From the NCBI RefSeq assembly GCF_038022665.1, contig NZ_CP150629.1, forward strand, positions 1,532,480-1,596,479: 64,000 bases of DNA, in the 5' to 3' direction. The position numbers were made by a program, and so were the translations under genes. Origin of the DNA: Methanolobus sp. WCC4 (GTDB taxonomy: Archaea; Halobacteriota; Methanosarcinia; Methanosarcinales; Methanosarcinaceae). Below the pieces are notes generated by a model. That model was not told where the DNA came from. It did not search any database and worked only from the letters and a program-made list of their open reading frames with translations. Position 1 is the stretch's first letter; each line of letters begins with the position of its first letter. Below, one piece after another: positions 50,711 through 53,783 of this stretch.

Positions 50711-53047
50711 ATGTCTATAGTCGTATTCACGGAAAAGAACAAGGCAGCTTCCCAGATAGCAGGTATCCTGAGTGATGGACACTACAACCGTGCTTCGGTG
50801 GCAGGTCTTCCCGTATACGACTTTAAGCTCAATGGTCAGGAATGGCGGATAATGGGTCTTGCCGGTCACATCATGGGATATGATTTCCCAGAACAGTTCA
50901 ACAACTGGCGTGAATGCGACCCTGCGGTCCTCCTGGATACTCCTCCTGTGAAGAACGTCACCAAGAAACCTTATGCTGCTGCTATCTCGCTTCTTGCAAG
51001 CGGTGCTAAGGAAGTAGTACTTGCATGTGACTTTGACAGGGAAGGTGAGAATATCGGTTATGAGGCAAAGGAGATTGCTGAAAAAGTTGCTTCATTTCCG
51101 GTGAAGAGAGCTCGTTTCTCATCACTTTCAGTCAGCGAGATCAAAAAGGCATTTTCCAATCTGGTTGAACCTGACTACAATATGGCGATGTCAGCAGAGG
51201 CCCGTCAGATACTTGATCTTAAGATGGGTGCAGCATTTACCCGTTTCATGACACTTTCCGTCAGGGAGAGGGCCCGTACAAAGGGTGTTATCTCGATCGG
51301 TCCGTGCCAGACCCCTACATGTGGCTTTGTCTATGAGAGGGAGAAACTGATCAGGAACTTCAAACCGAAGGACTTCTGGAAGATAGAAGCGATCTTTGAT
51401 TCAAATGGTTCACAGTTCACAGGGACACACAGGGCAGGGAACATCCACGAAAAAGAGAAAGCTGATGAGATATTTGCCAGAATAAAGGACTGTAAGACCG
51501 GTATCGTGGATAAGAAAAGCGTGAAAGAGGCTCTTACAAACCCTCCGTATCCATTGAACACCACCGAGTTCCTGAAGCGTGCTTCCAAATTCCTGGGTGT
51601 AAGTCCCGAAGAGGCACTTGAAACGGCAGAGCAGTTATATCTTTCAGGATTTACCAGCTACCCGAGGACAGAGACAAACAAATATGCTGATGACTTTGAT
51701 TTCAGGTCCAAGGTTGTGGCTTTCTCATCGGGGATCTACCAGAAATATGCTCTTTCGATAATCTCTGCCGGTGAGATAAAATGCAGGAATGGTACTAAAG
51801 ATGGTCATGACCACCCTCCTATCCATCCCATTAAAGCGGCATCAAAGGATGATATTGAGAGAAGTATCAGGATGCCGAATGCGTGGAAGGTCTATGATCT
51901 GATATCAAGGCATTTCCTTGCAAACCTTATGGAGCCTGCAGTATTCGAGAAGACAAGGATGGAGATCCTTGTCAGTGATGAGATATTCGACGTAAAGGGT
52001 TCGATTCTCAAAAATGCAGGCTGGCTTGATGTCTATCCTTTTGAGACAAAGAACGATAAGCTTCTGCCATATGTTGAGGAAAAGGATGAGCTTGGCGTAA
52101 AGGAAATAAAGAACACAAAGTCCGAGACCACTCCCCCAAAACGACTTACTGAGGCTGAACTCCTCACTTTAATGGACAAGCATGGTATCGGTACCAAGGC
52201 TACAGCTCCGAGTCATATCGAGACCAACAAGAAAAGAGGGTACTTTGAAACAAAGGGTAAGACCATTGCTATTCTTGATACTGGTTTCACCCTGATGGAT
52301 ACGCTGGATGCCACGGTTCCCATACTTGTGCAGCCTGAGATAAGGGCACGTATCGAATCTCTCATACAGGATGTCGAGGATGGGAATAAATCACTTGATG
52401 CGGCTCTTTCAGAAGGAACCGATCTGATAAAACAGATGTACTCCCAGCTAACATCCAGCAAGGATGCCATTTCAGCAAGGATGGCAGGGACCATTGTGGA
52501 TGAGCAGGTTGCTACGGACAAGAAGAATTTCGTTGGGACCTGTCCTGAATGTGGAAGGATGCTTCGCATGATCAAGACCGATAATGGCAGGTTCGTGGGT
52601 TGTACGGGTTATCCTGAATGTAAGAACACATATCCTTTGCCAAAGGCAGGTGCACTTACAGTACTGCGTTCCCAGCAGTGTGAAAAGGATGGTGTTGCTG
52701 TCCTTAAGGTGGGTACTAAATACAACTGGGCTGTAGGTATTGGTCCCTGCTTCACATGTGATCTGGAAAAGAAGTGTTTCCCTCCTGAGATAGTCGGCCC
52801 ATGTCCTGCGTGCGATGGCTCGATGTTCCTCATAACTACAAAGGATTCCCGTTTCCTTGGTTGTACCAACAGGTGCGGGCACACACAATCCATCCCTAAA
52901 TCAGGTAGGCTTACTATCCTGAAAAATGCATGTGAACACTGTGGCTGGCAGTTACTTCGCGTCAAGGAGCAGAAACAGGATGCTGTGGAGTTATGTGCCA
53001 ACAGGAAATGTTCCGGAAAAACACAGCCGAAGTCCGGAGTAAAGTAA
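50711..53047 (+). CDS. topA: DNA topoisomerase I (type IA)
   Basis: This enzyme of 778 residues relaxes negatively supercoiled DNA by single-strand passage. The TOPRIM domain has the acidic CDFDREGENIGYE near residue 105, and the catalytic tyrosine is in SYPRTETNKY (about residue 317). The C-terminal 170 residues hold several four-cysteine zinc fingers (CPECGRML...CTGYPEC, GPCPACDGS...CTNRCG, CEHCGWQL...CANRKC). The start is the first ATG. There is no strong ribosome site. A perfect dyad and a candidate small RNA follow the stop. Confidence 0.95.
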   Translation: MSIVVFTEKNKAASQIAGILSDGHYNRASVAGLPVYDFKLNGQEWRIMGLAGHIMGYDFPEQFNNWRECDPAVLLDTPPVKNVTKKPYAAAISLLASGAKEVVLACDFDREGENIGYEAKEIAEKVASFPVKRARFSSLSVSEIKKAFSNLVEPDYNMAMSAEARQILDLKMGAAFTRFMTLSVRERARTKGVISIGPCQTPTCGFVYEREKLIRNFKPKDFWKIEAIFDSNGSQFTGTHRAGNIHEKEKADEIFARIKDCKTGIVDKKSVKEALTNPPYPLNTTEFLKRASKFLGVSPEEALETAEQLYLSGFTSYPRTETNKYADDFDFRSKVVAFSSGIYQKYALSIISAGEIKCRNGTKDGHDHPPIHPIKAASKDDIERSIRMPNAWKVYDLISRHFLANLMEPAVFEKTRMEILVSDEIFDVKGSILKNAGWLDVYPFETKNDKLLPYVEEKDELGVKEIKNTKSETTPPKRLTEAELLTLMDKHGIGTKATAPSHIETNKKRGYFETKGKTIAILDTGFTLMDTLDATVPILVQPEIRARIESLIQDVEDGNKSLDAALSEGTDLIKQMYSQLTSSKDAISARMAGTIVDEQVATDKKNFVGTCPECGRMLRMIKTDNGRFVGCTGYPECKNTYPLPKAGALTVLRSQQCEKDGVAVLKVGTKYNWAVGIGPCFTCDLEKKCFPPEIVGPCPACDGSMFLITTKDSRFLGCTNRCGHTQSIPKSGRLTILKNACEHCGWQLLRVKEQKQDAVELCANRKCSGKTQPKSGVK

Positions 53048-53059
53048 AGTTGATAAATT

Positions 53060-53085
53060 CGTAAATCAGTTTTCCTTGATTTACG
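53060..53085 (+). promoter_or_regulatory. Perfect 9-base inverted repeat upstream of candidate small RNA B
   Basis: CGTAAATCA (53060-53068) and TGATTTACG (53077-53085) are perfectly complementary with an 8-base spacer. The element lies 13 bases after the topA stop codon and just upstream of TATA-like TTATATAT (53104-53111). It could be the topA terminator stem, though no T-tract follows directly. Otherwise it is the binding site of a regulator that controls the small RNA. Confidence 0.5.
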
Positions 53086-53127
53086 TTCAATTTTGACAAA
53101 CACTTATATATGATCATGTCTATTTTA

Positions 53128-53250
53128 GGAGTTAGAGGCGAATAAAAGACCAATTTCCTGATCATAACCTCCAAGAAAAATGGGTCAGACCAGTCTACTA
53201 CCTCCAATCTACACAATAACAATTATAATTCGCCTCTGCCTCCAACTTTT
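53128..53250 (+). ncRNA. Candidate small RNA B with terminal stem and CCTCC loops
   Basis: No gene is encoded here. TTATATAT at 53104-53111 is a plausible TATA box that would start transcription near 53130. The RNA would begin with GGAGTTAGAGGCGAAT (53128-53143) and end with ATTCGCCTCTGCCTCC (53228-53243), which pair over 16 positions with one mismatch. This closes an 84-base loop region. CTTTTAATT follows as a possible terminator. Inside, ACCTCC occurs twice (53167-53172 and 53200-53205), the second within TCTACTACCTCC (53194-53205). TGGGTCA precedes it, as in candidate RNA A. The ACCTCC motif is complementary to ribosome-binding sites. It lies between convergent topA and nitroreductase genes. 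Confidence 0.6.
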
Positions 53251-53252
53251 AA

Positions 53253-53783
53253 TTAATTTTGATTAAATTGATTTCCATATTTCTCACTGTAGGTTATCTC
53301 ATCAAGGCTTTTTCTGGATGGTTCTTTCCCGGCGTCTGCAGGATTCCCTATTGCAAGTACTGCCATAAGCTCAAGTGATTCCGGACAACTAAGAATCAAG
53401 TTAACTTTATCTGCGTTGTTTAGTATCTCACCAAGCCAGACTGCACCGAGGTTCAGGTCACAGCATGCAAGAAGCATGTTCTGGATAGCTGCACCGATGG
53501 CCTGTATGTCCTTTGTTCTATTGTACATGGTCTCAGTATCGAGGTAGACTGCGATCAGAAGAGGTGCATCCTGTATTATCTTTGAATAGTGGGTACAACC
53601 TGCAAGTTCCTGCATGGTCTCATTGTTCCTTATTACGATGAACTTCCATGGCTGGTTGTTAAGTCCTGAAGGTGCCCATCTGCCTGCTTCAAGTATGGTT
53701 CTGATATCTTCATCACTGACCGGTTCTTCTGTGTATTTTCTGATGCTTCTTCTTGAAAGGATGGTGTCAATTACTTCTGGCAT
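53253..53783 (-). CDS. Nitroreductase-family FMN protein
   Basis: This 176-residue flavoprotein has the nitroreductase fold. The N-terminal RRSIRKYTEEPV and RWAPSGLNNQPWKFIV segments form the FMN site, and GAAIQNMLLACCDLNLGAVWLG and LAIGNPAD are also typical. It probably reduces quinones or nitro compounds with NAD(P)H, and its actual substrate is unknown. GGAGGTATCGAT gives an excellent ribosome site for ATG 53783. It is convergent with topA and the candidate small RNA, and its promoter precedes 53790. Confidence 0.92.
   Translation of the reverse strand: MPEVIDTILSRRSIRKYTEEPVSDEDIRTILEAGRWAPSGLNNQPWKFIVIRNNETMQELAGCTHYSKIIQDAPLLIAVYLDTETMYNRTKDIQAIGAAIQNMLLACCDLNLGAVWLGEILNNADKVNLILSCPESLELMAVLAIGNPADAGKEPSRKSLDEITYSEKYGNQFNQN

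Follow-up and report, generated by a model that had tools for sequence, protein, structure and literature searches.

What, if anything, is encoded in the gap that follows topA in Methanolobus sp. WCC4, and what might it do there? In the complete 2.85 Mb chromosome of this organism, topA and a nitroreductase-family gene converge on about 205 bases that hold a TATA box, two ends able to pair with each other and copies of ACCTCC between them. The initial annotation of the window (the whole stretch of 64,000 nucleotides analysed here, positions 1,532,480 to 1,596,479 of NZ_CP150629.1) had read these features as a small RNA carrying an anti-ribosome-site sequence. Few archaeal regulatory RNAs are known in both their structure and a conserved pairing site. 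The features of the locus, together with an RNA from elsewhere in the host genome that is discussed further below, are listed in Table 1.

Table 1 Features of the topA/nitroreductase locus and of the mtaCB-associated RNA, in window coordinates unless another locus is named
Feature	Position	Strand	Remark
topA	50711..53047	+	Upstream neighbour in Methanolobus and Methanomethylovorans
Inverted repeat TAAATCA-N8-TGATTTA	53062..53083		Upstream of the promoter
TATA box TTATATAT	53104..53111	+	
Predicted small RNA	53128..53250	+	Start expected at about 53128-53134 from the TATA distance; end within the T-rich stretch
P1 terminal stem, 5' arm GGAGTTAGAGGCGAAT	53128..53143	+	Covariation; conserved core TTAGAGGCGAAT at 53132-53143
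P2 inner hairpin, 5' arm GACCAATTT	53148..53156	+	Covariation
ACCTCC in the P2 loop	53167..53172	+	Private to Methanolobus sp. WCC4
P2 inner hairpin, 3' arm AAATGGGTC	53178..53186	+	Covariation
Anti-Shine-Dalgarno strand TCTACTACCTCCAAT	53194..53208	+	CCTCC in 39/43 homologues
Place of the second anti-Shine-Dalgarno motif	53209..53227	+	ATACCTCCAATTT in several relatives, degenerate here
P1 terminal stem, 3' arm ATTCGCCTCTGCCTCC	53228..53243	+	Covariation; CCTCC at its end
T-rich stretch CTTTTAATTAATTTTG	53246..53261	+	Likely terminator, by sequence
Nitroreductase-family gene	53253..53783	-	Pfam Nitroreductase; convergent, constant neighbour of the RNA
mtaCB RNA	L196, about 410-540 (host genome near 2,052,293)	-	Also at L205, L206, L207 and L208

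Results

A family of homologues in the Methanosarcinaceae

By blastn the element was found in about 14 Methanolobus genomes, downstream of topA in those that were read. With two covariance models, R1 from 16 Methanolobus genomes and R2 from 35 matches, the RNA was traced in 25 of the 27 genomes of Methanolobus and in five more genera of the Methanosarcinaceae (g11, which is mostly Methanomethylovorans, together with g2, g9, g12 and g14), giving a total of 43 homologues in six genera; wherever the neighbourhood was checked, they converge on the same nitroreductase gene. In G044 the RNA occupies 742,699-742,834 on the minus strand. The members in g9 and g12, which were used in neither R1 nor R2, have significant scores and exactly adjoin that nitroreductase gene; since they lie outside both models and yet stand beside the expected neighbour, they provide independent confirmation of the family. 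The gene on the other side is more variable, and in g2 and g14 it is not topA.

No copy of the RNA was found at that place in Methanosarcina, Methanococcoides or Methanimicrococcus, and Methanosarcina has none either beside the nitroreductase gene or after topA. When R2 was run over 186 genomes of the order, g13 (presumably Methanosarcina) yielded only two short, weak and non-syntenic matches (L162 and L163), which were dropped for want of synteny and of the right kind of stem. The initial annotation had set the candidate in the context of the regulatory RNAs of Methanosarcina; the window, however, comes from Methanolobus, and by the covariance model Methanosarcina is without this RNA.

One genome, G110, carries the RNA in two tandem copies (L120, 1501-1628 and 1978-2106). 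The second of these adjoins an apparently truncated nitroreductase gene, and the RNA gene was therefore kept after a partial duplication. The same genome contains a further RNA-like palindromic element (GCGAACGGGU / ACCCGUUCGC; L164, 514-618) with CACC repeats and with TATATATA upstream, which is possibly a distant paralogue.

Fold, covariation and promoter point to a structured RNA gene

As originally described, all but one of the 16 positions in the two ends are paired; one of the 15 pairs is G-U, and the remaining position is a U/C mismatch. This stem alone proves nothing, because 16-bp stems with at least 15 pairs occur 24 times in the 64 kb, as against 11-32 times in shuffled sequence; with equally good stems this common by chance, the terminal stem was dropped as a proof in its own right. 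The 123-nt element as a whole has a predicted folding energy of -28.9 kcal/mol, compared with -15.8 kcal/mol for shuffles (z -4.88; 0 of 200 shuffles).

Covariation in the terminal stem, P1, was measured in an alignment of 25 sequences that was anchored only on the ends, with no model fitting. In this alignment 94.7% of cells are paired, two-sided changes are seen in 8 of 12 pairs and occupy 38 cells (13.5 in shuffles), and the covariation score is 0.405, whereas slid partners give at most 0.172. The compensated pairs include GGCG/CGCC, GACG/CGUC and GAUG/CAUC. When the inner hairpin P2 was taken together with P1 in a second alignment of 46 rows, three of them doubtful (L162-L164), 19 of 21 pairs had two-sided changes and double changes filled 161 cells against 54 in shuffles, counts that are biased towards the structure since this alignment was fitted to the model. 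P2 recurs at the same position while its sequence differs from genus to genus. Covariation of the stem among relatives had been suggested at the outset as a way to check the candidate, and on both alignments the outcome is strongly positive.

The TATA box reported in the gap after topA is likewise present. Of the 43 homologues, 40 have their best TATA-like site 21-26 nt upstream of the first P1 base pair; 34 of the sites match the pattern used perfectly, compared with 1 of 43 after shuffling. In Methanolobus psychrophilus the measured distance from TATA box to transcription start is about 19-22 nt (PMC5378194), and since the spacing found here matches that value the transcript is expected to begin at the base of P1. 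A TATA box at so constant a distance is the mark of a separate plus-strand gene rather than of the 3' UTR of topA; we infer expression from these sequence features, which suggest that the RNA is independently transcribed. Upstream of this promoter, the inverted repeat is kept in most Methanolobus and occurs once in the host genome. With no second occurrence there can be no regulon, so that a regulon operator was ruled out, leaving a topA terminator or a private operator as candidate roles.

Because of the fold z-score, the conservation, the covariation and the promoter, and not because of the stem alone, we accept the RNA as real. The proposal of a small RNA is thereby backed on every one of these lines, and the element is almost certainly a structured non-coding RNA that is conserved and has a promoter of its own.

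The best conserved unpaired part copies the end of 16S rRNA

The 16S 3' tail reads CTGGATCACCTCCTAAG at four loci of the host genome. Since all four 16S genes end in this way, with ACCUCC in the tail, the ribosome's anti-Shine-Dalgarno sequence has ACCUCC at its core, as the initial annotation had it. In the RNA, the strand that joins P2 to the 3' arm of P1 is the best conserved of the unpaired parts. It contains CCUCC in 39 of the 43 homologues, as against 3.9 in shuffles of those same strands; 13 homologues have it twice and four have none. The conserved joining stretch of Methanolobus group A is CUACUACCUCCAA. CCUCC is also present in the tail after P1 in 29/43 homologues, and a further CCTCC at 53239 forms part of the base of the P1 stem.

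Both of the ACCTCC copies previously noted between the two ends exist, but their standing differs: the one at 53200 is conserved, whereas the one at 53167 is found in 1 of 43 homologues. The related suggestion that the anti-ribosome-site sequence is exposed holds insofar as the motif is conserved and predicted to be unpaired; it lies, however, in the joining strand and not in hairpin loops.

Masking of ribosome sites, and other readings of the motif

Since the RNA copies the 16S tail, its natural partners would be Shine-Dalgarno sites. We consider it probable that it is a trans-acting RNA of about 120 nt, belonging to an undescribed family of the Methanosarcinaceae, which masks strong Shine-Dalgarno sites and represses translation. 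In such a molecule the long terminal stem P1 would act as a clamp and P2 would prevent the stretch next to it from folding, leaving single-stranded a joining strand in which ACCUCC stands once or twice, frequently with another copy in the tail. This strand would then pair with strong Shine-Dalgarno sites (of the UUGGAGGU type) in a limited set of mRNAs, and ribosomes would be kept off the paired sites, repressing translation in trans. That the RNA works by covering ribosome sites is, by analogy with sRNA41 and loop 2 of sRNA154 from Methanosarcina mazei and with rhizobial NfeR1 (see Discussion), a somewhat better than even expectation; from the same analogy we infer, as likely, the pairing with mRNA and repression as the sign of the effect. 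The presence of the motif in two unrelated conserved RNAs (see below) speaks for this reading, while the loss of the second motif from the host genome and the four joining strands that lack CCUCC speak against it.

The host genome was sampled for such sites in 403 start regions, drawn from the window and 20 other stretches, each 20 kb long. The full GGAGGT was found in only 14 of these, compared with 163 that have GGAG or GAGG, and because the full site is so rare the ACCUCC motif would select few mRNAs. Start regions with strong sites include those of mttP and of an mtaC-like corrinoid protein.

The same conservation would be accounted for by a protein that binds CCUCC. The RNA would on this account be a decoy titrating a factor specific for CCUCC in single-stranded form, such as one that serves ribosome assembly or initiation and normally binds the 16S 3' end, much as CsrB titrates CsrA in bacteria. 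An RNA whose unstructured strand repeats one short motif unchanged, with further copies in its tail and in two other RNAs (see below), does have the look of a titrating RNA. The conserved flanks (UCUACUACCUCCAAU), however, exceed the five-base core and lengthen the complementarity to real start regions, and we know of no such CCUCC-binding protein in these archaea. We regard the decoy as unlikely.

Judged by its surroundings, the RNA could instead act in cis on the convergent nitroreductase gene through overlapping 3' ends, since that neighbour is the same in every genus checked even though the other one changes, and since the 3' arm of the RNA overlaps the end of the nitroreductase gene in some genera. 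Against this, the overlap in Methanolobus is absent or amounts to a few bases, the second RNA copy of G110 stands beside what seems to be a truncated gene, Methanococcoides has topA and the nitroreductase gene adjacent without the RNA, and descent alone would give a constant gene order. A function in cis therefore strikes us as quite unlikely.

In group A the open frame MGQADLLPPIYLQF begins within the 3' arm of P2 and extends over at least 23 residues in 13 of 14 sequences, which would be expected if the region encoded a small protein, alone or beside an RNA function. Its ATG, however, has no Shine-Dalgarno sequence and is missing from L073 and outside group A, a frame shift in L065 spares the RNA motif, and the AUGGGUC is accounted for by the pairing of P2; this reading was rejected on these grounds, and we hold it to be very improbable. 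Finally, a conserved DNA element, such as a promoter or terminator of the flanking genes, with no RNA function of its own is scarcely credible. The locus does have a TATA box and a T-rich end, and conservation can extend to intergenic elements, but paired changes compensate each other across about 100 bases, the sequence of the joining strand is maintained and the homologues adjoin different upstream genes.

mttP as a candidate target

For an RNA that masks Shine-Dalgarno sites in trans, targets should carry its complement. The UUGGAGGUA complement stands before a start codon about seven times per Methanolobus genome. The nine-base ribosome-site pattern was discarded as a target finder, some of its roughly seven matches per genome being methylotrophy genes and many not being genuine starts. 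A recurrent UUGGAGGUA match is the gene of an EamA-type permease, lying in the host genome directly after apparent genes for MttB (trimethylamine methyltransferase) and MttC (a corrinoid protein), which we take to be MttP, the trimethylamine permease. There are 24 mttP orthologues, of which 23 have readable start regions; GGAGGUA is present in all 23 of these and UUGGAGGUA in 21.

On inspection, AUACCUCCAAUUU, which is the RNA's second motif, and the mttP site AAAUUGGAGGUAU are perfectly complementary over 13 bases in five species (G059-G063). The predicted pairing of the RNA with mttP ranks third of the 403 start regions in the host genome. Across most group-A genomes the cognate pairing is among the best 1-8% when set against 402 other start regions, and it is ordinary in the clade formed by G044, G047, G050 and G057. 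Since mttP was first noticed through its complement site, these ranks are suggestive only. By sequence, mttP is thus suggested as the best target candidate; that it is a direct target of this RNA is possible, though doubtful.

The perfect 13-base complement TTGGAGGTAGTAG was likewise given up as a target finder, since in group-A genomes it retrieves only the RNA gene itself. It is also the ribosome site of mttP in four genomes of another clade, in which the resident RNA copies match it poorly. In G047 and G050 (L219 and L222, near 1500), a leader with two to three tandem GGAGGTAGT-like sites precedes a short frame (TTGGAGGTAGTATTGGAGGTAGTTTTGATG); it could be a strong target of such RNAs or a sponge for them.

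Two further RNAs carry the same motif

A search with ACTACCTCCAA identified two unrelated conserved Methanolobus RNAs that have the same CUACCUCCAA, one in the gap between dapB and pyrI and the other 3' of mtaCB. On inspection, the three RNAs have no mutual sequence similarity beyond the motif. The first of the additional elements (dapB > RNA < pyrI; loci L243, L199, L200, L201, L203, L204, L254, L256 and L260) comes with a TATA box of its own, UUACUACCUCCAAACGUUUCUUCC and a terminal poly-U stretch, and in the host genome (893,774; L243 around 674) it contains three CCUCCA. The other is encoded 3' of the methanol operon mtaCB, which was identified by sequence, and on the same strand as that operon. 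It consists of a stem GGCUUUACAG/CUGUAAAGCC around a further stem and a loop containing UUCUACCUCCAACUCCACAACCUUC; G058 has it in two copies.

With the mttP leader, the loop of the mtaCB RNA alone has a predicted pairing energy of -33.9 kcal/mol, rank 1 of 403 start regions in the host genome, and with a longer stretch of this RNA the mttP pairing was equalled by 0-6 of 402 other start regions in the pairs tested. The predicted pairing in the host genome falls into two separate blocks (AUGAAGGUU and UUGGAGGUA). The three unrelated tail-copying RNAs could form a small circuit acting on shared strong ribosome sites of methylotrophy genes, in which methanol use would silence methylamine uptake, but we rate this speculative scheme as rather unlikely.

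Discussion

Several RNAs are known to pair with ribosome binding sites. In the Firmicutes, C-rich-loop RNAs such as RsaE use a conserved C-rich unpaired motif to pair with Shine-Dalgarno sequences; these are bacterial, their motif is UCCC and their architecture is a different one. Within the same family of organisms as the present RNA, the intergenic sRNA41 of Methanosarcina mazei has been proposed to mask ribosome binding sites of polycistronic mRNAs in trans (PMC5867862). The covariance model, however, detects no Methanosarcina homologue of the RNA described here, and at most a remote kinship with sRNA41 may exist.

Similar in form is sRNA154 of M. mazei, which is about 130 nt long, has stable stems and carries an anti-ribosome-site sequence, in its case in loop 2, where it blocks translation of glnA2 (PMC5867862, PMC3177094, PMC11456600). 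sRNA154 lies in the gap between MM3337 and MM3338, and is characterised by an NrpR operator, a leaderless frame of 20 residues, for which a small-protein function has also been proposed in M. mazei, and two functional loops. In contrast, the present RNA has neither an NrpR operator in its promoter nor a leaderless frame, and its site is in the joining strand. Within the window, 8277 and 31712 are the only positions with operator-like sites of the form GGTA-N6-TACC, neither of them in the RNA promoter.

The alpha-proteobacterial NfeR1 (alpha-r14, of the 'cuckoo' RNAs) silences mRNA start regions through three redundant motifs (PMC10746234), and resembles the present family in that one RNA carries the same anti-Shine-Dalgarno motif several times, each time in an unpaired region. 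Its plan is bacterial, with three hairpins and CCUCCUCCC in each unpaired region, whereas the folds and alignments of the present RNA give P1, P2 and the joining strand rather than three hairpins with CCUCCUCCC; the two have no stem architecture in common, and no sequence past the CCUCC core.

Rfam 15 contains no family that matches at gathering threshold, either at this place in the window or at four homologue loci from different groups, and permissive thresholds also returned no known RNA family. The family is thus new and absent from Rfam 15, with no detectable membership in the known families of anti-Shine-Dalgarno RNAs, while the anti-Shine-Dalgarno way of working is already known. What is novel appears to be the RNA family itself, in which the pairing strand is kept accessible by the inner hairpin on one side and the long clamp stem on the other.

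If ribosome sites are masked as we propose, then a small number of mRNAs with the full GGAGGU would be translated more upon deletion of the RNA. Should the same hold for the other two RNAs that carry the motif, the strategy of the rhizobial NfeR1 RNAs would have arisen in archaea by convergence, and the choice of substrate in methylotrophic methanogens could be controlled in part by RNA.
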